A stretch of DNA of 64,000 bases from contig NC_018010.1 of the NCBI RefSeq assembly GCF_000265405.1, forward strand, positions 3,555,501-3,619,500. The letters run 5' to 3'. The translations under genes and the position numbers were made by a program. This stretch comes from Belliella baltica DSM 15883 (GTDB lineage Bacteria; Bacteroidota; Bacteroidia; Cytophagales; Cyclobacteriaceae). This document shows, piece by piece, positions 8,701-19,020 of this stretch (the stretch's first letter is position 1; every line of letters starts with the position of its first letter). Below the pieces are notes generated by a model, which did not search any database, was not told where the DNA came from, and saw only the letters and a program-made list of their open reading frames with translations.

Positions 8701-8774
8701 CGGGGTGTAGCGTAGCCCGGTATCGCGCCTCGTTTGGGACGAGGAGGTCGTAGGTTCGAATCCTGCCACCCCGA
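8701..8774 (+). tRNA. tRNA-Pro (anticodon UGG), host gene of the integrated element
   Basis: Cloverleaf by eye: acceptor CGGGGTG pairs with CACCCCG, anticodon arm CCTCG-TTTGGGA-CGAGG gives anticodon TGG, T arm GTAGG-TTCGAAT-CCTGC, discriminator A, no encoded CCA. The gene is intact because the element restores its 3' end. The last 16 bases plus two more are duplicated at 19003-19020. Confidence 0.95.
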
Positions 8775-8776
8775 CC
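8759..8776 (+). repeat. attL core, 18-bp direct repeat inside tRNA-Pro
   Basis: AATCCTGCCACCCCGACC covers the T-stem and acceptor 3' strand of tRNA-Pro and is repeated exactly at 19003-19020. This is the normal footprint of tRNA-targeting tyrosine recombinases. Confidence 0.9.
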
Positions 8777-9085: not shown

Positions 9086-10321
9086 ATGAAAGCACAAAAT
9101 TGCACATTCGGGGTTGTCTTTTACCTCAAGAAACAGAAAACAACAGCGCAGGGAACGACTCCCATCTATGCAAGGGTAACGGTGAACGGAAAACGCACGG
9201 AAATATCCATCAAACGTTCCGTAGCCGTTTCGGGATGGGATGCAAAAAAGGGCTTGGCAAAGGGAAGCCGTCAAGAGACGGCAGAACTTAACCGCTTCCT
9301 TGACCGCTTCAAGGCAAAAATCATTGATGCCTACCAAGAATTGGTATTATCGGGAAATACGGTAGATGGTACGGTCATCCGTGAACGTGTAACGGGGGCT
9401 TCAAAATCAGAGCCAACGCTCGGCGGTCTGATGGAGTACCATAATAATGAGCAGGGGAGCAAACTTGCACACGGTACGATGAAGAACTATTATACCACGC
9501 AAAGCTATATCAAATGCTTTCTGAAAGAAAAGTACCGCCGTACAGATATGGCACTTTCGGAACTAAGCTATACGTTTATCTCCGATTTTGAACATTACCT
9601 GCGTACCTATAAACCGAAAGACCACCACCGACCGTTGAACAACAACGGTATCATGAAGCACATCGAGCGTCTCCGCAAGATGGTAAACATGGCGGTCACG
9701 ATGGATTGGCTTGCAAAAGACCCATTTGCGAAGTTTAGGAAACATTTTGACAAAGTGGAACGTGAAAGCCTAACAAAGCAGGAACTTGCCAAGCTCGAAA
9801 AGAAACGGTTTAGGGTTGAGCGTTTGCAACAGGTATTGGATATGTTCGTTTTCAGTTGCTACACGGGGCTTGCCTATATTGACCTTGCCGAACTTACGCC
9901 CGATAACATCATTACAGGCATCGATGGTAACCTCTGGATATTTACAAGCAGGGCAAAGACCGACACGAGTGTCCGTATCCCCCTATTGCCAAAGGCAAGG
10001 GAACTGATGGAAAAATATAGCGATGACCCAAGAGCGGTCAGTAACGGAACGGTATTCCCTGTCATCTCCAACCAACGGATGAACGGCTACCTAAAGGAAA
10101 TAGCGGAGATATGCGAAATAAACAAAGACCTTACGTTCCATATCGCACGGCACACGTTTGCCACTACGGTCACATTGAGCAACGGCGTACCCATTGAATC
10201 GGTGAGCAAGATGCTCGGACACACGAGCATCCGAACCACACAGATTTATGCCAAAGTAGTGGAAAGCAAGTTGAGCGAGGACATGGGCAGGTTGCAGGAG
10301 CGCATGGCATCGGGAAGCTAA
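9086..10321 (+). CDS. Tyrosine-type site-specific integrase of the element
   Basis: 411 aa. N-terminal arm-binding domain (VFYLKKQKTTAQGTTPIYAR), SAM-like core-binding domain (about 115-215), and a C-terminal catalytic domain with HIARHTFAT (near 351), LGHTSIRTTQ and the nucleophile Tyr near 387. The first catalytic Arg position reads TGLAYIDL, so Ala stands where many recombinases have Arg. Some Bacteroidetes integrases, including that of CTnDOT, also lack this Arg, so it need not mean inactivity. Catalyses insertion into and excision from tRNA-Pro. It lies about 300 bases from attL and points inward. Confidence 0.93.
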   Translation: MKAQNCTFGVVFYLKKQKTTAQGTTPIYARVTVNGKRTEISIKRSVAVSGWDAKKGLAKGSRQETAELNRFLDRFKAKIIDAYQELVLSGNTVDGTVIRERVTGASKSEPTLGGLMEYHNNEQGSKLAHGTMKNYYTTQSYIKCFLKEKYRRTDMALSELSYTFISDFEHYLRTYKPKDHHRPLNNNGIMKHIERLRKMVNMAVTMDWLAKDPFAKFRKHFDKVERESLTKQELAKLEKKRFRVERLQQVLDMFVFSCYTGLAYIDLAELTPDNIITGIDGNLWIFTSRAKTDTSVRIPLLPKARELMEKYSDDPRAVSNGTVFPVISNQRMNGYLKEIAEICEINKDLTFHIARHTFATTVTLSNGVPIESVSKMLGHTSIRTTQIYAKVVESKLSEDMGRLQERMASGS

Positions 10322-10446: not shown

Positions 10447-11217
10447 ATGAAAGAGAGAGCATATTTTAAGATTCGCCCCCGATTTGGGAAAGCACAGAAT
10501 CCGTTTGATATCGGTATGCCTTTCTTTTGGTGGAAAGGACATTATGACCTGCATTTTCTAAAAAGGCTTTACGAGCGCACACAGGATGAATTTGGCGCAT
10601 ATTATGACCACCATCTGCAATTCTTTTTGCAGGAGAATGAAGAAGCGACCGAAATCGAATTTTTCAGACACGTGAACGATATTGCGAGCGATGAACTTAA
10701 CAAGCTCATAGCGGACGATAAACGGGAATCCAAGTCAAAGCACAAGAGCATCGTACAACAGAAAAAAATGCTAAGGGCATTCCTTGATTATCTCGTTTTG
10801 ATAGACCAATGGAACACCACCAAGACGAAAGACGAAATTATAGCGGAAAAGGAAAGCGAGATTAAAGAATTAAAGGGGGTCGTGGAACAACTCACCCAAG
10901 AACTTAAAGAAGCTCAAAAACTCGAAACGGAGGGATTTATCAATATCCCCGAGAGTTACGTTTTAACGGTAGTTGACCTTTTTGTAAAACTAAGGAAACA
11001 GGAACTGAAAGACGGGCGTGAACTCGCTTTCGCCCAATTCGGTATAGTATGGGTAAAGATGATATGCCGATATTTCCGAGAAGATAAGCAACCTATCAGT
11101 ATAGATACCATACGGCGGTATTTTCCCGCAGACCTAAAAGATCTGAAAGAAAAATACGCCGAAATCCCGTCAAAAAATAAGCTTTTCGATATTGTTCCTG
11201 CGAAAAAAAGGCGGTGA
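10447..11217 (+). CDS. Hypothetical element-encoded protein
   Basis: 256 aa, not recognised with confidence. Aromatic N-terminus (MPFFWWKGHYDLHFLKRLYE), a charged middle with an obvious coiled coil (about 138-162, EKESEIKELKGVVEQLTQEL) and a basic C-terminus ending KKRR. No signal peptide or membrane helix, so cytoplasmic. It lies between the integrase and the HTH gene, where Bacteroidetes mobilizable elements often carry an accessory regulatory or replication-type gene, but nothing visible fixes its role. Confidence 0.75.
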   Translation: MKERAYFKIRPRFGKAQNPFDIGMPFFWWKGHYDLHFLKRLYERTQDEFGAYYDHHLQFFLQENEEATEIEFFRHVNDIASDELNKLIADDKRESKSKHKSIVQQKKMLRAFLDYLVLIDQWNTTKTKDEIIAEKESEIKELKGVVEQLTQELKEAQKLETEGFINIPESYVLTVVDLFVKLRKQELKDGRELAFAQFGIVWVKMICRYFREDKQPISIDTIRRYFPADLKDLKEKYAEIPSKNKLFDIVPAKKRR

Positions 11218-12022: not shown

Positions 12023-12403
12023 ATGAAAAAATTGGCGAATGAAAAGAAAACGGACGGAAAAACACGCAAGCGTGGCCGTCCGAAAAAGGCGATAACCCGA
12101 AGCGTTTCGCTCGTTGTCCGCTTGACCCCGACCGAACGTTTGGCGATTGCAGGGAAAGCAAGAAATGCGGGCATGCGGATAAGCGATTGGTTTCGGCAGT
12201 CCGCAAAGGTTGCCGTGATACGACCGAGGCTGTCAGAAAAAGAAACAGGACACCTGCGCACATTATCGGGCATGGCGAACAACCTCAACCAGTTGACCAA
12301 GCTTGCGCACAAGGGAGGGCTTGTGTCAATCATGACGAATCTGCGCGGGTTACTCAACGAAGTGGAGCGGTTAATGGAAAGGATGGGCAGGGATGATAGC
12401 TAA
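12023..12403 (+). CDS. MobC-like relaxosome accessory protein
   Basis: 126 aa. Basic N-terminus (KTRKRGRPKKAITRS), then a ribbon-helix-helix-like segment VSLVVRLTPTERLAIAGKAR and the MobC-type ending (GMANNLNQLTKLAHKGGL). Family members bind oriT and help the relaxase open it. The 3' end overlaps the relaxase start by 11 bases, so the two are translationally coupled. Cytoplasmic, DNA-binding. Confidence 0.88.
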   Translation: MKKLANEKKTDGKTRKRGRPKKAITRSVSLVVRLTPTERLAIAGKARNAGMRISDWFRQSAKVAVIRPRLSEKETGHLRTLSGMANNLNQLTKLAHKGGLVSIMTNLRGLLNEVERLMERMGRDDS

Positions 12404-13343
12404 GGTAATCACGGGCAAGAGTTTCGGCGGTTGCGTGCGTTACCTGTTGGAACGTGAAAAGTCTTTTGTTCTGGATTCGGCAGGTGTTAGGGATTACAGT
12501 ATCAAGGCGATTATTGCCGACCTCAACACACAGCGCAAGATGCGCCCACAGCTTGGCAATGCCGTGGGGCATACCGTGCTAAGTTGGAGCAACGAGGACG
12601 GGGATAAACTTACCTTAGAGAAAATGGCACAGCACGCACGGGAATACATGGAGAAGATGGGCATCAAGAATACCCAATACGTTACCGTACTTCATTCAGA
12701 CAAGAAGCACCCGCACTTGCATATCGTGTACAACCGTGTAGATAATGAGGGGAAGACCATTGGCAATTATAACCATTGGCACAAAAGCCGAAAGATATGC
12801 AGGGAAATAACGGAGCGATACGGCTACCATCTTGGCAAGGGCAAGGCAAAGGTTAACAGGCAGGCACTTCGGGGCAACGACAAACTTCGTTATGCCATAC
12901 ACGATTCGCTTAAATCCGTGATGGCGAAAGCCACCACATGGAAGCAGGTGGAAACGATGCTTGCAAGGCAGGGCATCGGGATGCATTACAAGTACCGTAG
13001 CGGTACAAATGAAGTGCAGGGCATTTCCTTTGAAAAGGACGGCGTGAAGTTCAAAGGCTCGGCAATCGACCGAAAATTCAGCTTTGCAGGGATGGAGAAA
13101 CAGCTAAGCGAAAACCGGGCAATGGGAATAACGCACTCCATCACGGAGAACCCTACACTTGCCGACCAGATAAGGGAGGTACTCGAACAACAGGAACAGC
13201 GGTCGGAGGCATACGAAACGGGATTGGGTCTGCTTGGTGACCTGTTGGACATGCCCGCTTCGATAGAACCCGATCCCGACCCGATATGGCGCAGGAAAAA
13301 GAAGAAACCGGAGCAAGAACAATCAAGAGGAATCAGCAGATAA
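12393..13343 (+). CDS. Relaxase / mobilization nuclease
   Basis: 316 aa, PF03432-type relaxase. It nicks oriT and pilots the single strand during mobilization. Candidate nucleophile Tyr17 (GGCVRYLLE), and the metal-binding histidine cluster HPHLHIVYNRVD (about 106-117) followed by GKTIGNYNHWHKSR. The C-terminal third is charged and ends in a basic tail. Overlaps the MobC-like gene by 11 bases. Length is normal for short relaxases of Bacteroidetes mobilizable elements. No conjugation coupling protein is present in the element. Confidence 0.93.
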   Translation: MIAKVITGKSFGGCVRYLLEREKSFVLDSAGVRDYSIKAIIADLNTQRKMRPQLGNAVGHTVLSWSNEDGDKLTLEKMAQHAREYMEKMGIKNTQYVTVLHSDKKHPHLHIVYNRVDNEGKTIGNYNHWHKSRKICREITERYGYHLGKGKAKVNRQALRGNDKLRYAIHDSLKSVMAKATTWKQVETMLARQGIGMHYKYRSGTNEVQGISFEKDGVKFKGSAIDRKFSFAGMEKQLSENRAMGITHSITENPTLADQIREVLEQQEQRSEAYETGLGLLGDLLDMPASIEPDPDPIWRRKKKKPEQEQSRGISR

Positions 13344-13355
13344 AACATTAAAGAA

Positions 13356-14012
13356 ATGAACGAACAGGAATTACAGGTCACCCTAAAAGACATACAGGAC
13401 GTAATGGTGAGTATGGACGGACGTATGCAACAGATCGAAAAACAGCAATCCGAAGCCAAGGACTATTCGGCGGAATTGGCAAGCATCAATGGAAAATTGG
13501 AGCATATCGTAAAGGATGAAACGCTTGCCGGACTGAAAGCATCCATGAGTAAGCTGGCTACCGCCAGCAGTAACCTCGTTACAGCTATCAGCGAGCAACA
13601 GATCATGCAGGAGACACTGATAAAGGAATTTCCACAAAAGATGAAGACCGAAATAGTACATCGGTTTACGGGCAGGCAGCAACCCTATATAATTACCGGT
13701 ATTGCCCTGGTTTTTATTACGATTTCCTCTCTTTTAGCCAGCGTACAGCTTTGGAGGAATAACTTAGCTTTACAAAGCAGCGATATTAAAATCCGGACAG
13801 TCAAATTGATATACCCGAAAGTGTTCTTGGACGTGGATACTTTTTACCATGAGAGCCCGAAGAAATTGGCAGCATGGGTGGAACAGGAAGAAGCAAGATT
13901 ATTTGCCATTATCAAAGCAGAAGAAGCGGCAAGGCAATCCAAGGAAAAGGCAGAGCGGGCAACCGAAAGATTAAACCGATTGAAAAAGCAAAAAAACAAG
14001 AATTCAAAATGA
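13356..14012 (+). CDS. Hypothetical single-pass membrane protein of the mobilization region
   Basis: 218 aa. A coiled-coil-rich N-terminal half (DIQDVMVSMDGRMQQIEKQQ), one membrane helix near 110-130 (YIITGIALVFITISSLLASV) and a charged, Lys/Glu-rich C-terminal helix ending in a poly-basic tail. No signal peptide. It begins 12 bases after the relaxase and its stop overlaps the next start (ATGA), so it belongs to the same transcript. Such small membrane proteins commonly follow relaxase genes in Bacteroidetes elements; the function is unknown. Confidence 0.8.
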   Translation: MNEQELQVTLKDIQDVMVSMDGRMQQIEKQQSEAKDYSAELASINGKLEHIVKDETLAGLKASMSKLATASSNLVTAISEQQIMQETLIKEFPQKMKTEIVHRFTGRQQPYIITGIALVFITISSLLASVQLWRNNLALQSSDIKIRTVKLIYPKVFLDVDTFYHESPKKLAAWVEQEEARLFAIIKAEEAARQSKEKAERATERLNRLKKQKNKNSK

Positions 14013-14491
14013 ACCATAAAATGATTAAATTTGTAACAGGCATGAATACAGACGTTATGAAACTAAAGGAAATAAGGGACGAAAAAGGTACATTGTCAGG
14101 GGTGCTTATCCCTGCCGACGATATCCGGGAATTAAAGGAAAGTCTGAAAACAGGTTCGAAATTCTTTGACTACTTCGATAGCCTGCAATCCGATAGGGAG
14201 AACGAAAAAAGAAACCTTGACCAGTTGATGCCCAATGGGTTGACGGTTGCCGGGACAAACGAGAAAACAGCAGAGCTCACCGAAAAAATCCACAGGAAAG
14301 CTTTTTCAATGGGTGTCCCCATGTTCTACCGCGACGAGCGGGCTAAAGCACCAAAGGAGTTTATCCGGGCGAACCCCGACGGCTCGGAAGATTTGGTCAG
14401 CTACGATCTGGCTACACGGAGCTATTCGGTATTGAAATCACTATTGCCAGCAGGCAAGGGGTATTGGTCGAAGCTATCCATCGCTAAATAA
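14009..14491 (+). CDS. Hypothetical protein coupled to the zeta-like kinase, possible antitoxin
   Basis: 160 aa from the ATG at 14009, which overlaps the preceding stop as ATGA; this coupling decides the start (the open frame begins further upstream but inside the previous gene). Helical and charged, with no recognisable DNA-binding motif and no similarity that I can see to epsilon antitoxins. It ends 6 bases before the zeta-like gene. Its position just upstream of a P-loop toxin-like gene is the only reason to propose an antitoxin role. Confidence 0.7.
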   Translation: MNHKMIKFVTGMNTDVMKLKEIRDEKGTLSGVLIPADDIRELKESLKTGSKFFDYFDSLQSDRENEKRNLDQLMPNGLTVAGTNEKTAELTEKIHRKAFSMGVPMFYRDERAKAPKEFIRANPDGSEDLVSYDLATRSYSVLKSLLPAGKGYWSKLSIAK

Positions 14492-14497
14492 CCGGCC

Positions 14498-15184
14498 ATG
14501 AGACCGCAGTTTTTTATCCTTGCCGGTCCGAACGGGGCGGGCAAGTCAACCTATGGGCACGAACACGTTCCGAAAGACACAATTATCTTCAATGGTGACT
14601 TGGTTTATGCAGAATTGTTGCAAAAGTATCCCGACTACGACCCCGAAAAGCTAAAAGGTGGAGTACCTGCCCGCTTGGAAAAGGAAAGGGACGAGGCCAT
14701 CTTACAGCACAGGGATTTTGCCTTTGAAAGCAACTACTCCAACGACCTTGCCATCGAGATAACCGATATATTCAAAAATGCAGGGTACCAAATCAACCTT
14801 ATCTATTTCGGGTTGGACGACGTGGAAACAGCTTCGTTACGTGTGGATACCCGTGTTGCGTTGGGAGGACATTTTATAGACACGGACGAGATTATTTTCA
14901 ATTATGAGGAGGGTATACAACGGGTACGCGAAAATATGCACCGCTATGACCGCGTGAAATTTGTGGACACAGGCATAAGGGGAGTAGCCCCCCTGATAGC
15001 CTACTATCTGAAAGAAAATGGAAAGCATGCGGTGTTGAACTCCAATATCGGCTGGTTTAATTCCCAATTTGATGATAGATTGCTTGAAATAGCTATCCAA
15101 CGGATTAACGACCTCTCTTCTTATGATGAAAACAGAAAGAGCACCGATCAAAAGGTAAATAAACGATGGAGACCCAAGCGTTAA
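14498..15184 (+). CDS. Zeta-toxin-like P-loop kinase
   Basis: 228 aa. Walker A GPNGAGKST (10-18), an acidic FNGD.VYAELLQKYPDYDPE motif like the substrate-binding Asp of zeta toxins, and R..TRVALGGHFIDTDEI, close to the RVA.GGH motif of the family. Zeta toxins phosphorylate UDP-N-acetylglucosamine and block wall synthesis; related non-toxic kinases also exist, so activity is unproven. It is the last gene of the mobilization transcript and could stabilise the element. It lies just before the cargo boundary repeat. Confidence 0.8.
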   Translation: MRPQFFILAGPNGAGKSTYGHEHVPKDTIIFNGDLVYAELLQKYPDYDPEKLKGGVPARLEKERDEAILQHRDFAFESNYSNDLAIEITDIFKNAGYQINLIYFGLDDVETASLRVDTRVALGGHFIDTDEIIFNYEEGIQRVRENMHRYDRVKFVDTGIRGVAPLIAYYLKENGKHAVLNSNIGWFNSQFDDRLLEIAIQRINDLSSYDENRKSTDQKVNKRWRPKR

Positions 15185-15286
15185 TTAGATTATCGAATTC
15201 GAATAGACATAAGAAACGCGTTTAACAGCGGAAGAATAATAAATATTCATAGTATCATACCCAATTAGAAAACCGAGAACTTTGTC

Positions 15287-15311
15287 TCTTTATGATAACA
15301 AAGTACATTGA
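15287..15311 (+). repeat. Left copy of 25-bp direct repeat framing the cargo cassette
   Basis: Begins TCTTTATG, ends AACAAAGTACATTGA; recurs at 18841-18865 with only two differing bases (AT here, GC there). It lies between the last backbone gene and the first cargo gene. Confidence 0.8.
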
Positions 15312-15325
15312 GCTAATTATGCTTT

Positions 15326-16030
15326 TTATAAAATTAATTTATCTACTTTTCCCTTTACGTCACCAACGAATTCTCCTTTTATTATTTTTGTCAAATCTCC
15401 AAATCGAGACTTATCAAAGCTTTGTGAAAGCTGCTTGTCCTTTACTAAAATCACTTTGTCTGCATGGTGGAGAATTGTTTCTAAAATATGCGAAGATAAT
15501 AATATAGTACTCCCTGTTTCTTTTAGCCGTTCAATGATAATATTGACTATTTCACTCGTTTTTAGATCTAAACCGTTAAACGGTTCATCCATAATAATTA
15601 TTTTCTTATCCAGTAATAGAATGCCCATGATCGATAGCTTCTTTTGCATTCCAGTAGAATAGTTATGAATATATTCCTTTAAAGGTAGCTGAAAGATGGA
15701 ATTCCATACGTTTACTTTTTCGTATGAATATTGACCCACAATTTTGAGATATTCTAAACCTGTCATATATGGATAGAAATAAGGGGTTGCCTGTAGAAAA
15801 GCTATATCTTTAGGAAGAGGCAATGTTTGATTTTCTTTGTCAACATCAATATTCCCGCTAATAATATTAAATAGGGTTGTTTTGCCTGCCCCATTGTCAC
15901 CCACAATGCCGTATATTTGACCGTTTTCGATACCCAGACTCACATTGTCAAATATTGGTTTCCTCCCATAAGCAAATGTGAATTGTTCTAATTTAATAAT
16001 GCTCTCAGATTTTCTCGGTTCTTTCTCCAT
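15326..16030 (-). CDS. ABC transporter ATP-binding protein of the peptide cluster
   Basis: 234 aa, full-length ABC ATPase. Walker A GDNGAGKTT (44-52), signature YSTGMQ (124-129, a variant of LSGGQ), Walker B IIIMDEP (144-150) with the D loop NGLD, and a switch His (LLSSH). It probably powers export or immunity for the peptide made by the upstream genes. Its start lies inside the 3' end of the permease gene (43-base overlap), so the two are coupled. Last gene of the cassette. Confidence 0.88.
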   Translation of the reverse strand: MEKEPRKSESIIKLEQFTFAYGRKPIFDNVSLGIENGQIYGIVGDNGAGKTTLFNIISGNIDVDKENQTLPLPKDIAFLQATPYFYPYMTGLEYLKIVGQYSYEKVNVWNSIFQLPLKEYIHNYSTGMQKKLSIMGILLLDKKIIIMDEPFNGLDLKTSEIVNIIIERLKETGSTILLSSHILETILHHADKVILVKDKQLSQSFDKSRFGDLTKIIKGEFVGDVKGKVDKLIL

Positions 16031-16923
16031 ACTTTGTAAAGTAAATATAATGATACAGGAAGGACTGGCGTTAAGATAAAATAAAGCGTAATCGGTATAG
16101 TATTCTGAACCTTGGTGCTTATTGTTTTTAGCGTATACTTTAACAGGAAGGCGTATATAAGCACCATATTAAACAATATGGCACATCCTACCAGTATTAG
16201 GATTTGAGGGGTAGTATATAGAAAGACAAACAGAATATAATGTGGCAGAAATAATAGGTTGCATGCCAATAAAATACTCTTTATCTTCTGTTCGTAAAAA
16301 TATTTATGCGTCCTATACGATTGTACTATCTCCCGGGCTTCTAAATACGCGTAAAACTCTCCTGAAAATGTCATCCAGTAGAGCATCATAATAGGAGTTA
16401 TGGGGAAGAAAAACAACAAGATTATCCCAACTATATAGCTGGACAAAAAAAGTAGTGGACTTTGTCTGATTCCCGATCTCCATTCAAACGCATGCAATGG
16501 TAAAGCACGAGTTAATTTTCTGATAAAGTAGAACTTTTTAATTTTTCTTTTGAATATTGATTGATATACTGCCATAGCGAAAATTAACAAAAGAGGGAGT
16601 GTCATCAAAAAATCAATGCTATGCACGGATAGTGCAAAAAGTTCTAAGAATAGATAAAGCGTCAAATATTCTATCAAAAAAATAAGCAAGGTCCTGTTTT
16701 TAAATACGGAACTTAAAAACTCGGTATCTTTGCGTTTTAATCCTAAAGACAACAAAATTATGGCGATCATTATCTGCGTTCCCTCTACTCCCACATTGGT
16801 CAATACTTTGTTTAAATAGAATAGCAATATTAGTGCAAAAGGAACCAGTATAAAAAGGTTGCCACCCGCTGCTGATAGGTATCGAAACAGTTGTTTAAAT
16901 CTAAAAGTAAAATACTCAAACAT
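15988..16923 (-). CDS. Multi-pass membrane protein, ABC permease of the peptide cluster
   Basis: 311 aa with about eight hydrophobic helices and short basic loops; no peptidase or nucleotide-binding domain. It starts one base after the stop of the dehydrogenase gene (TAG-G-ATG) and overlaps the ATPase gene, so it is the membrane partner of that ATPase. Sequence alone does not tell export from self-immunity. Low GC like the rest of the cargo. Confidence 0.8.
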   Translation of the reverse strand: MFEYFTFRFKQLFRYLSAAGGNLFILVPFALILLFYLNKVLTNVGVEGTQIMIAIILLSLGLKRKDTEFLSSVFKNRTLLIFLIEYLTLYLFLELFALSVHSIDFLMTLPLLLIFAMAVYQSIFKRKIKKFYFIRKLTRALPLHAFEWRSGIRQSPLLFLSSYIVGIILLFFFPITPIMMLYWMTFSGEFYAYLEAREIVQSYRTHKYFYEQKIKSILLACNLLFLPHYILFVFLYTTPQILILVGCAILFNMVLIYAFLLKYTLKTISTKVQNTIPITLYFILTPVLPVSLYLLYKVWRKNRENLRALLN

Positions 16924-16924
16924 C

Positions 16925-18142
16925 CTATCTTACAATTTCATGTTTTAAGAAATCAGGTTCTAATAGATTAACACTTTCATTGGCTAATGGAATTCCACAA
17001 CCAACAACGAGAGTAGCTCCTTCAGTAAAGCCGTCTAGAGACAGTTCCTGTTCAATCAGCGATGTGTTTATAGCTCCTGTTACGAAACTTCCCAGATTTT
17101 CTTTAGCTGCATTTAAATAAAACATTTGGCTTAGGTGCCCTGTGTCCAATAAAGTGACTTTATATGCTAAAGTATGTTGTTGATATTTCCAAAAGTTTCT
17201 AAAGTATCGAGTAGTCATAAGAACAAGAAAACCAGCATCTTTGACATAATGTTGTCCAGCCACAAATTTGTTAGCAAAATCCTTCGCTTCCTCTGCATTG
17301 TATATTTTAACCAAATCTAAACTATGCATTTCAACATTATAATGATAAATTCCAGGTTCTAACGATTCAACGTTTAATCATAGAATGTACGCTTCCGTTG
17401 GGTGTAGTGACCCTCCTGAGGGAACTGTTTTATGTAATAACGTTAACTGCTTGTGCATGTCATACTTTCCATGACATCCGAACGTATAAAGTAGCACGGT
17501 TGATAAAGTCTCCAATTTTACAGAAATGTTCTTGTTGAAGATTCGACTGGTCTTTCTTTTTAGGATAGTCTGATAATAAGTATCATCAGACAAATCTTCA
17601 AGGGGTAACATAGTTCTATTTTCGAAATTTATTTTGTGAAAATGAGTTGGTGGAACGCCATTTTTTTTAATTATGTTATCCATTCCTTGCTCATATAGAT
17701 CCATATTATCATCACCCTCGTAATCTTCGGTAACCATCTCAACATCCACTTTACTCCATTTTGTTAAGTAGTGGAAGAAAGCTGCATATATGTTCCATTT
17801 GGACTTGTTTAAAATATCTTCTTTTCGAATATATTGTGCAAATTCCTCCTGCCCATTATCAAATAGTAATATTCCTACTGAAGCAAATTTTTCAAGAAAC
17901 TCAAGAGTAAAACCTAGATTTTCATTGAATTCTACCCATTCAGTTATCGAAATAGATTTTAATATTTCGAATTCTTCGTCTGACACAACAATCTCTTCCC
18001 CATTTAAAACAGGAAAAGCCAACATTTTCCGCGATTCAATTTGTTGAATTTTTCCTTTCAATAACTCTTGGATATCAAGTGTTTTTCCGTTTTTATGATA
18101 GAAAAACACAAACTCACTTCTTTTAATTTTTTTTGACTTCAT
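16925..18142 (-). pseudogene. SagB-like peptide-maturation dehydrogenase with one in-frame TGA (codon 255)
   Basis: 405 codons in one frame from ATG 18142 to TAG 16925, broken only by TGA at 17380-17378. Before it, PSGGSLHPTEAYIL gives the FMN-binding core of SagB/nitroreductase dehydrogenases; after it the same frame continues LNVESLEPGIYHY, exactly as in intact relatives, to VVGCGIPLANESV. The N-terminal region (FFHYLTKWSKVD, GVPPTHFHK) recalls the putative peptide maturation dehydrogenase family I remember as TIGR04511, which accompanies leader-type precursors. SagB enzymes oxidise azolines; no YcaO partner is seen here. Either a nonsense mutation, a sequence error or read-through. An internal ATG at 17329 could restart a 134-aa piece, unlikely to work alone. 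Confidence 0.8.
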
Positions 18143-18167
18143 AACCTGTTCTAAAAATGATTAATAT

Positions 18168-18181
18168 AGGAGTTTATCAAG
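18168..18181 (+). repeat. Left arm of 14-bp inverted repeat flanking the precursor gene
   Basis: AGGAGTTTATCAAG, perfectly complementary to 18579-18592. GATTAAG follows at a similar distance on both sides when read in the same orientation, so the similarity runs beyond 14 bases with an indel. Confidence 0.7.
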
Positions 18182-18188
18182 TTGGCGA

Positions 18189-18530
18189 TTAAGCTACATT
18201 TTTCATCTTTGCACTGGATGTCATGGGTAAAAAAACAAATACAACAGTGATAGCGAATGCTAGCGGAAGCCCCATCTGAACGTTAGATTGGGCAGGAAAT
18301 GCAAATTTCTCTCTTTCCATGAATTCTGCAACCGCCTCTCTAAATTTCTCCGTTTCTGGAAGTTTTATTAGTTCATCAATGGCTGAATCTTCAATGTGAA
18401 TACCGTAATTAGAAAGCGTTTTCTTGGTATTTTCTTCTAATTCTTTCTTGAAAGAATCATCTGTCAATAGACTGCTTAGAAAACTAACAAGTTTTCTTGG
18501 TGCCAAATTGTTTAAATTTTGAGTCTCCAT
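18189..18530 (-). CDS. Putative modified-peptide precursor (RiPP precursor-like)
   Basis: 113 aa. Residues about 14-48 (LVSFLSSLLTDDSF... LSNYGIHI) follow the pattern of NHLP/Nif11-like leader peptides: L..D..F...L......L..YGI. A second acidic helix follows, then a tail from about residue 75 with a strongly hydrophobic stretch (MGLPLAFAITVVFVFLP) and a short polar end (MTSSAKMKNVA). There is no Cys, so lanthionine or thiazole chemistry is unlikely; Ser/Thr or backbone modification, or membrane insertion, is possible. First gene of the cassette, 46 bases ahead of the dehydrogenase. No obvious cleavage site (no GG). Confidence 0.72.
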   Translation of the reverse strand: METQNLNNLAPRKLVSFLSSLLTDDSFKKELEENTKKTLSNYGIHIEDSAIDELIKLPETEKFREAVAEFMEREKFAFPAQSNVQMGLPLAFAITVVFVFLPMTSSAKMKNVA

Positions 18531-18592: not shown

Positions 18593-18840
18593 GTTGCTAA
18601 TCTAACCAACTATTTCAATAAATACAAGTATTTTTCTTTCATTATGAGTTGTTTATAAAGTAAATAGCCAGCATTTATTCGCAATCCCTCCTTTCTGTTT
18701 GTTGTTTTCCTCCGCTCATTAGTGGCTTGCGAAACCCCACCGCTCTTGGCCTGCGCTGTTCTCGCTTTGGGCATTTACGGGATTGGTTTGGCGACTAAAT
18801 TCTATGAAAAAAGGATTTTAGTTATCGGGGAGCTTTTTTA
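18593..18840. other. Non-coding stretch upstream of the precursor gene
   Basis: No gene seen. The first part is AT-rich and should hold the cassette promoter on the minus strand; no clear TAnnTTTG box, only a weak TAGATTAG near 18600. Bases about 18675-18795 are abruptly GC-richer (for example CCACCGCTCTTGGCCTGCG), resembling the element backbone, so cargo and backbone pieces seem mixed here. Confidence 0.4.
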
Positions 18841-18865
18841 TCTTTATGGCAACAAAGTACATTGA
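18841..18865 (+). repeat. Right copy of 25-bp direct repeat framing the cargo cassette
   Basis: Same sequence as 15287-15311 apart from two adjacent bases. The two copies enclose 3.5 kb holding exactly the four cargo genes. Confidence 0.8.
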
Positions 18866-19002: not shown

Positions 19003-19020
19003 AATCCTGCCACCCCGACC
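19003..19020 (+). repeat. attR core, 18-bp direct repeat
   Basis: Exact copy of the 3' end of tRNA-Pro, with no upstream tRNA body. It marks the right boundary of the element. Confidence 0.9.

Follow-up and report, generated by a model that had tools for sequence, protein, structure and literature searches.

Introduction

SagB-type dehydrogenases usually oxidize azolines that have been made with YcaO proteins, and a SagB-domain enzyme of this kind is part of the SagBCD and microcin B17-type thiazole/oxazole-modified microcin (TOMM) systems. The subject of this work is a four-gene cassette in the genome of Belliella baltica DSM 15883, located in a window of 64,000 nucleotides (NC_018010.1, positions 3,555,501 to 3,619,500; coordinates below are those of the window unless a locus is named), which likewise encodes a SagB-domain dehydrogenase but which differs from TOMM systems in that it is YcaO-free (no match to PF02624) and has a Cys-free precursor. 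Another set of families, found in Xanthomonadaceae and relatives, consists of TIGR04509, TIGR04510 and TIGR04511, the NCBIfam names of which are NHLP-related RiPP peptide, putative peptide modification system cyclase and putative peptide maturation dehydrogenase, respectively (RiPP: ribosomally synthesized and post-translationally modified peptide). The Belliella cassette resembles this set in having a dehydrogenase that scores above the TIGR04511 cut-off and a precursor that is related to TIGR04509, at a score under the cut-off. It differs in having no TIGR04510 match, in bringing its own permease and ATPase and in the core of its precursor, which is hydrophobic and almost invariant.

Two further clusters provide precedents for SagB or nitroreductase enzymes that act without YcaO. 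According to the report on Pseudomonas sp. Os17 (PMC7726476), loss of the precursor Os1348 lowered antibiotic activity, and the cluster has a SagB-type gene, the authors having found no sagC or sagD homologues. A 2025 preprint (PMC12636437) on the pfl and pos clusters shows that Z-dehydrophenylalanine (in the sequence ..AAIFDQ..) is formed by the nitroreductase domain of PflD, whose cluster has an NHLP-type precursor and no YcaO; its authors consider that further nitroreductases free of YcaO may produce dehydroamino acids of other kinds. The pos and pfl clusters (Os1348–Os1351 and PflA–PflF) share with the Belliella cassette an NHLP-type precursor, a SagB or nitroreductase enzyme free of YcaO, SagC and SagD, and transporters nearby, whereas they differ from it in that their nitroreductase carries a fused MNIO domain and is accompanied by a GNAT enzyme and a HEXXH enzyme, the Belliella enzyme being stand-alone.

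A sequence-only reading of the locus had called it a candidate for an undescribed RiPP system. This may hold for the four-gene form, on which no paper was found in the literature searched (mostly without subscription journals), but YcaO-free nitroreductase chemistry has been preprinted and a similar Os17 cluster is in print. Neither "TIGR04511" nor "peptide modification system cyclase" is mentioned in the literature searched, and the phrase "peptide maturation dehydrogenase" occurs there once, applied to SagB; the chemistry of TIGR04511 seems to be unreported.

Results and Discussion

The minus strand of positions 15326–18530 carries, in this order, genes for a precursor peptide, a dehydrogenase, a permease and an ATP-binding cassette (ABC) ATPase (Table 1). 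Open reading frame (ORF) coordinates agree with the sequence-only reading on the four same-strand genes and on their spacing: 46 bases between precursor and dehydrogenase, a single base between dehydrogenase and permease, and an overlap of 43 bases between permease and ATPase. When scored across an in-frame stop codon, the dehydrogenase gives 288 bits in a profile search against TIGR04511 (cut-off 240), and it is thus not an ordinary nitroreductase. Sphingobacterium sp. SGR-19 has all four genes in this order, too, and there the dehydrogenase is unbroken; the arrangement is therefore not a matter of chance. Judged from sequence, the cassette is of RiPP type and of the TIGR04511 kind and is YcaO-free; it brings an ABC transporter of its own, has moved recently and is interrupted in the Belliella genome.

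The reading we lean towards, as somewhat the probable one, is that of a mobile TIGR04511 RiPP-type cassette at a tRNA-Pro gene, inactivated here by a stop codon, the intact form of which would perform Phe desaturation followed by ABC export. The NHLP/Os1348-like leader of the precursor would bind the flavin mononucleotide (FMN) dehydrogenase, which, independently of YcaO and by the precedent of PflD, would take two hydrogens (−2 Da) from Cα and Cβ of a core residue to give a dehydroamino acid, the target most likely being one of the invariant Phe residues of the hydrophobic core. The permease/ATPase pair would export the product, or pump it out for protection, and we would guess that the leader is trimmed by a host protease.

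The SGR-19 dehydrogenase (locus L006) is 96% identical to that of Belliella, and the DNA of the two cassettes is 98.7% identical over 3,733 aligned columns (3.7 kb). Upstream of the precursor, through the tRNA repeat, 508 of 524 columns are identical as well. With the CTP synthases of the two genomes being only 73% identical, this high identity points to recent transfer, and the cassette and its upstream flank would seem to have moved together, and recently, between distant bacteria. The precursors show no differences at all and the permeases three, all synonymous, whereas the ATPases (15326–16030 versus L006 10113–10817) differ by 19 synonymous differences and six changed codons. Most of the differences in coding sequence thus fall in the ATPase gene, the other three genes of the two cassettes being almost identical, and this excess is a hint of recombination within the cassette. 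Like its Belliella counterpart, the SGR-19 cassette adjoins a tRNA-Pro gene whose 3′ end is repeated; a 17-base portion of the repeat is present three times (L006 7001, 7125 and 10983). It is unlike the Belliella cassette in that the gap between ATPase and tRNA-Pro measures some 165 bases, so that no integrase/relaxase module lies beside it. The three copies of the SGR-19 tRNA-Pro 3′ end (L006:6971–7141 and 10953–10999) have differing terminator-like arms, and look like the remnants of several elements that had inserted at this one tRNA and then decayed.

The transport genes had been read as a permease and an ABC ATPase. The ATPase matches ABC_tran and the permease displays eight transmembrane-like stretches by hydropathy, but no family could be assigned to the latter, which matches nothing in Pfam or NCBIfam at E ≤ 1. 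A search that scored 7,996 candidates, those sharing most words with the permease, returned 10 homologues, five of them at 65–92% identity. We also scanned genomes for relatives of the dehydrogenase, the best 80 of 306 relatives yielding 79 loci, namely, SGR-19 and 78 others at 28–39% identity. A permease profile matched none of these 78 other loci at E ≤ 0.01, and the permease is peculiar to the branch to which the Belliella cassette belongs. Among NCBIfam models, the ATPase comes closest to TIGR03740, the lantibiotic-protection ATPase (99.1 bits), as would be expected if the ABC pair worked as a pump that protects the cell from the product and not as an exporter of it; this score is far below the cut-off of 309.75, however, and the exporter ATPase PmtC scores nearly equally on the same protein (94.3 bits). 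We regard such a pump, which is compatible with the remainder of the desaturation reading, as possible, if doubtful.

The precursor is, as read before, free of Cys and ends in a hydrophobic stretch followed by MTSSAKMKNVA. Its leader matches NF038399 (22.3 bits, cut-off 40) and TIGR04509 (21.7 bits, cut-off 34), both at E ~1e-4, such that the leader-domain relation anticipated in the sequence-only reading is found, but under the cut-offs; the precursor relatives P0002–P0006 are also under these cut-offs or have no match. A search that needed shared five-residue words retrieved, from 5.8 billion proteins, five relatives besides the precursor itself. Invariant columns make up 20 of 27 in residues 74–100 versus 13 of the 71 scored columns in residues 1–73, and the conserved block (of the type FAFPA....QMGLPLAFAITVVFVF) is hydrophobic, Cys-free and contains five invariant Phe residues. 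The precursor/dehydrogenase pairs P0003/P0009 (4152) and P0005/P0010 (3757) each have the same contig size and source, which suggests that they are linked. Relative P0003 extends 17 residues beyond the usual C-terminus. A structure model of the precursor, built from 14 alignment rows, is weak (mean pLDDT, the predicted local distance difference test score, 56.7). Its best-ranking Foldseek matches are Os1348 (6lk7), which comes first and is a likeness to the pos cluster, SonA and the precursor of a proteusin; unrelated chains come next. None of the matches reaches significance, the lowest E value being 0.34 and 0 of 42 lying at E ≤ 0.001.

A precursor profile, built from six family precursors only, was then searched against the 10,453 ORFs of the 78 other TIGR04511 loci. 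It gave 27 matches at E ≤ 0.01, of which 26, in as many loci, overlap the dehydrogenase or lie within 600 nt of it and one lies elsewhere, with 2,255 of the 10,453 ORFs being that near to a dehydrogenase. Iteration brought the model to 65 of the 78 loci, but because the iterated model was trained on adjacent matches the pairing claim rests on the first-round model. Homologues of the precursor thus stand beside TIGR04511 in loci from Acidobacteria, Actinobacteria, Gemmatimonadetes and Proteobacteria. Since precursor matches cluster at the dehydrogenase and the permease finds no matches, precursor and TIGR04511 constitute the common unit, and these two genes are linked elsewhere, as the sequence-only reading required. 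In a Gemmatimonadetes locus (L017:7025–7987, plus strand), an ORF of 320 amino acids with a leader-like start is positioned directly upstream of the TIGR04511 match; it contains 15 copies of YGPASYA at a spacing of 12–14 residues, which suggests a candidate multicore precursor with Tyr. The small Belliella protein might instead be a tail-anchored membrane protein or an accessory of the ABC transporter, with the dehydrogenase acting on something else. Its C-terminal block hardly varies and is hydrophobic (mean hydropathy 2.07 over 19 residues), and in this it is indeed more like a functional membrane helix than like a variable core, but the adjacency of precursor homologues and TIGR04511 in four phyla, without a match of the permease profile in any of those loci, and the 15 repeats of one core-like unit in the adjacent L017 ORF argue the other way, and we consider this explanation improbable.

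The TGA at codon 255 divides the dehydrogenase into ORFs of 254 and 134 amino acids, which separately score 120.7 and 129.5 bits against TIGR04511, compared to 290.2 bits for the intact SGR-19 copy and 284 bits for homologue P0008. The SagB-like dehydrogenase of the sequence-only reading is therefore correctly placed as to family but is not an intact gene. The stop splits the SagB domain, TIGR03605 positions 1–45 being in one piece and 65–172 in the other, whereas the uninterrupted SGR-19 dehydrogenase scores above the TIGR03605 cut-off; homologues of about 400 amino acids without interruption, the SGR-19 copy included, exist. There is no second TIGR04511 match at E ≤ 0.001 in the 4.2-Mb Belliella genome, in which no TIGR04511 enzyme is encoded by one intact ORF. 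Because the stop interrupts the sole modifying enzyme, the cassette is probably inactive in Belliella. Only two synonymous differences and two changed codons, one of these being the stop, separate the Belliella and SGR-19 dehydrogenase genes, and for this reason the stop looks recent.

The same absence of further decay would be expected if the dehydrogenase were still functional, by decoding of the TGA as selenocysteine, by leaky read-through, by association of the two fragments, or because the stop is a sequencing error, and an ATG is present 16 codons past the stop in the downstream fragment. The transfer is so recent, however, that little decay would be expected in any case, and the break falls within the catalytic domain. 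The residue at the interrupted position varies among relatives, several different residues being found there, so that it is no conserved catalytic site. Finally, the Belliella genome has no SelB above the cut-off (the best match, a 401-aa EF-Tu-like frame, attains 192.6 of 242.25 bits; SelA and tRNA-Sec were not searched for), which makes a selenoprotein unlikely. We give a functional Belliella dehydrogenase little credence, and retain probable inactivation by the stop codon.

The absence of YcaO noted in the sequence-only reading extends to the whole Belliella genome, and also to that of SGR-19, neither of which has a PF02624 match. We searched 28 genomes, being Belliella and those of 27 of the 79 loci, several of which are metagenome-assembled so that absence from these is soft evidence. 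PF02624 is matched in eight of the 28; the 20 genomes with a TIGR04511 dehydrogenase and no YcaO include Belliella and SGR-19. In controls the same search was positive for five of 14 genomes, including that of E. coli. A dehydrogenase without YcaO is therefore common in the TIGR04511 family. TIGR04510, which had been called the usual cyclase partner, is absent as stated (no match at E ≤ 1e-40 in Belliella or SGR-19) but is no constant companion, with matches at E ≤ 1e-40 in 14 of the 28 genomes and scores above the cut-off in 10. Nor does it resemble a cyclodehydratase: in a Xanthomonas example the N-terminal part finds nucleotide cyclases of solved structure (E 2.2e-10 to 2.7e-9), a later part finds tetratricopeptide repeat (TPR) proteins, and the protein looks like one of signaling type. 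Its absence therefore removes no ring-forming step and, YcaO-free genomes being common, no cyclase has been lost from this system. With a precursor that lacks Cys, and with Thr95 as the sole invariant Ser/Thr in residues 74–100, azole chemistry is moreover unlikely. A classical TOMM system with its cyclodehydratase elsewhere in the genome, although it would agree with the usual role of SagB-type enzymes, can hardly be entertained in view of the YcaO search, negative in Belliella and SGR-19 and positive in controls, and of the Cys-free precursor, unless the ring were formed by an enzyme unrelated to YcaO.

As to the residue that would be modified, deduplication reduced the 65 precursor tails to 57. 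Of the precursors encoded on the strand of the dehydrogenase, 12 of 14 contain a hydrophobic residue plus Phe within their last 25 residues, versus 422 of 2,589 other short ORFs. Several observations weigh against the desaturation reading, and some of them concern this count: only 18 of 43 opposite-strand precursors have such a tail (30 of 57 for both strands), the tails of the four Xanthomonas loci are without Phe, and leader residues −75 to −51 of the same precursors contain the hydrophobic-Phe combination in 18 of 57 cases. Because the leader stretch is Phe-rich too and Phe is not universal, the count is weak evidence, and Phe as the modified residue is a fair guess for the branch of the Belliella cassette and no family rule. 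In addition, the precursor scores miss all curated cut-offs, and relative P0005 has no leader-model match at E ≤ 0.01. A hyperconserved core with a variable leader is the reverse of many RiPPs. The likeness of PflD and TIGR04511 is one of description, and the permease structure model (pLDDT 52) is too poor for naming a fold. In the Os17 report (PMC7726476) the SagB-type mutant showed no mass shift, a change of 2 Da, as its authors note, being hard to detect there.

The cassette had been placed on a mobilizable element, and the genes around it bear this out. An integrase, a NikA/MobC-like protein, a relaxase and a zeta-toxin-like protein are encoded between the two repeats of the tRNA-Pro 3′ end, with the cassette at the far end, and integrase, relaxase and a tRNA 3′ end duplicated at both ends together characterize an integrative mobilizable element. 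The gene on its left flank is found in two of eight genomes of the genus, that of Belliella itself included, the other copy being at a contig end. The inner 31-base direct repeats that flank the cassette are perhaps a scar of its insertion. The zeta-toxin-like P-loop protein (14498–15184, plus strand; PF06414 30.3 bits, cut-off 22.3) is directly preceded by a small protein of no known family, the two (13874–15184, plus strand) forming a candidate toxin–antitoxin or maintenance pair of the element.

Table 1. Positions of the cassette genes and of the surrounding element in the window
Feature	Position	Strand	Remarks
Precursor peptide gene	18189..18530	-	113 aa; leader NHLP/Os1348-like, C-terminal core hydrophobic
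Candidate core, precursor residues 74-100	18231..18311	-	almost unvarying; Phe 76, 78, 92, 98, 100
SagB-like TIGR04511 dehydrogenase gene	16925..18142	-	interrupted by in-frame stop; ORFs 17378-18142 and 16925-17329
In-frame TGA, codon 255 of dehydrogenase	17378..17380	-	
Membrane permease, unnamed family	15988..16923	-	311 aa
ABC transporter ATPase	15326..16030	-	234 aa; PF00005 70.9 bits
tRNA-Pro (TGG), insertion site	8701..8776	+	last 18 bases, 8759-8776, are one repeat copy
Second copy of tRNA-Pro 3′ end, far end of element	19003..19020	+	18/18 bases
Tyrosine integrase	9086..10321	+	PF17293, PF13102, PF00589
NikA/MobC-like mobilization protein	12023..12403	+	PF21983, PF05713
MobA/VirD2-type relaxase	12393..13343	+	PF03432 118 bits
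31-base direct repeat flanking cassette, copy 1	15281..15311	+	87% identical to copy 2
31-base direct repeat flanking cassette, copy 2	18835..18865	+	

Conclusions

More speculatively, and with clearly less confidence than we place in the desaturation reading of the cassette itself, TIGR04511 enzymes may at large be stand-alone, YcaO-free desaturases by which, in many phyla, the C-terminal cores of precursors of the NHLP clan acquire residues of the dehydrophenylalanine type. The Belliella cassette would then be a minimal, four-gene form of such a system, residing at tRNA-Pro, with a hyperconserved, hydrophobic and possibly membrane-inserting product and a dedicated ABC exporter. With one modifying enzyme, an intact copy in SGR-19 and a precedent for YcaO-free desaturation, the question has become testable with two genes, and the Belliella and SGR-19 copies appear to record the recent passage of such a cassette between bacteria that are only distantly related, and its breakage in one of the two.

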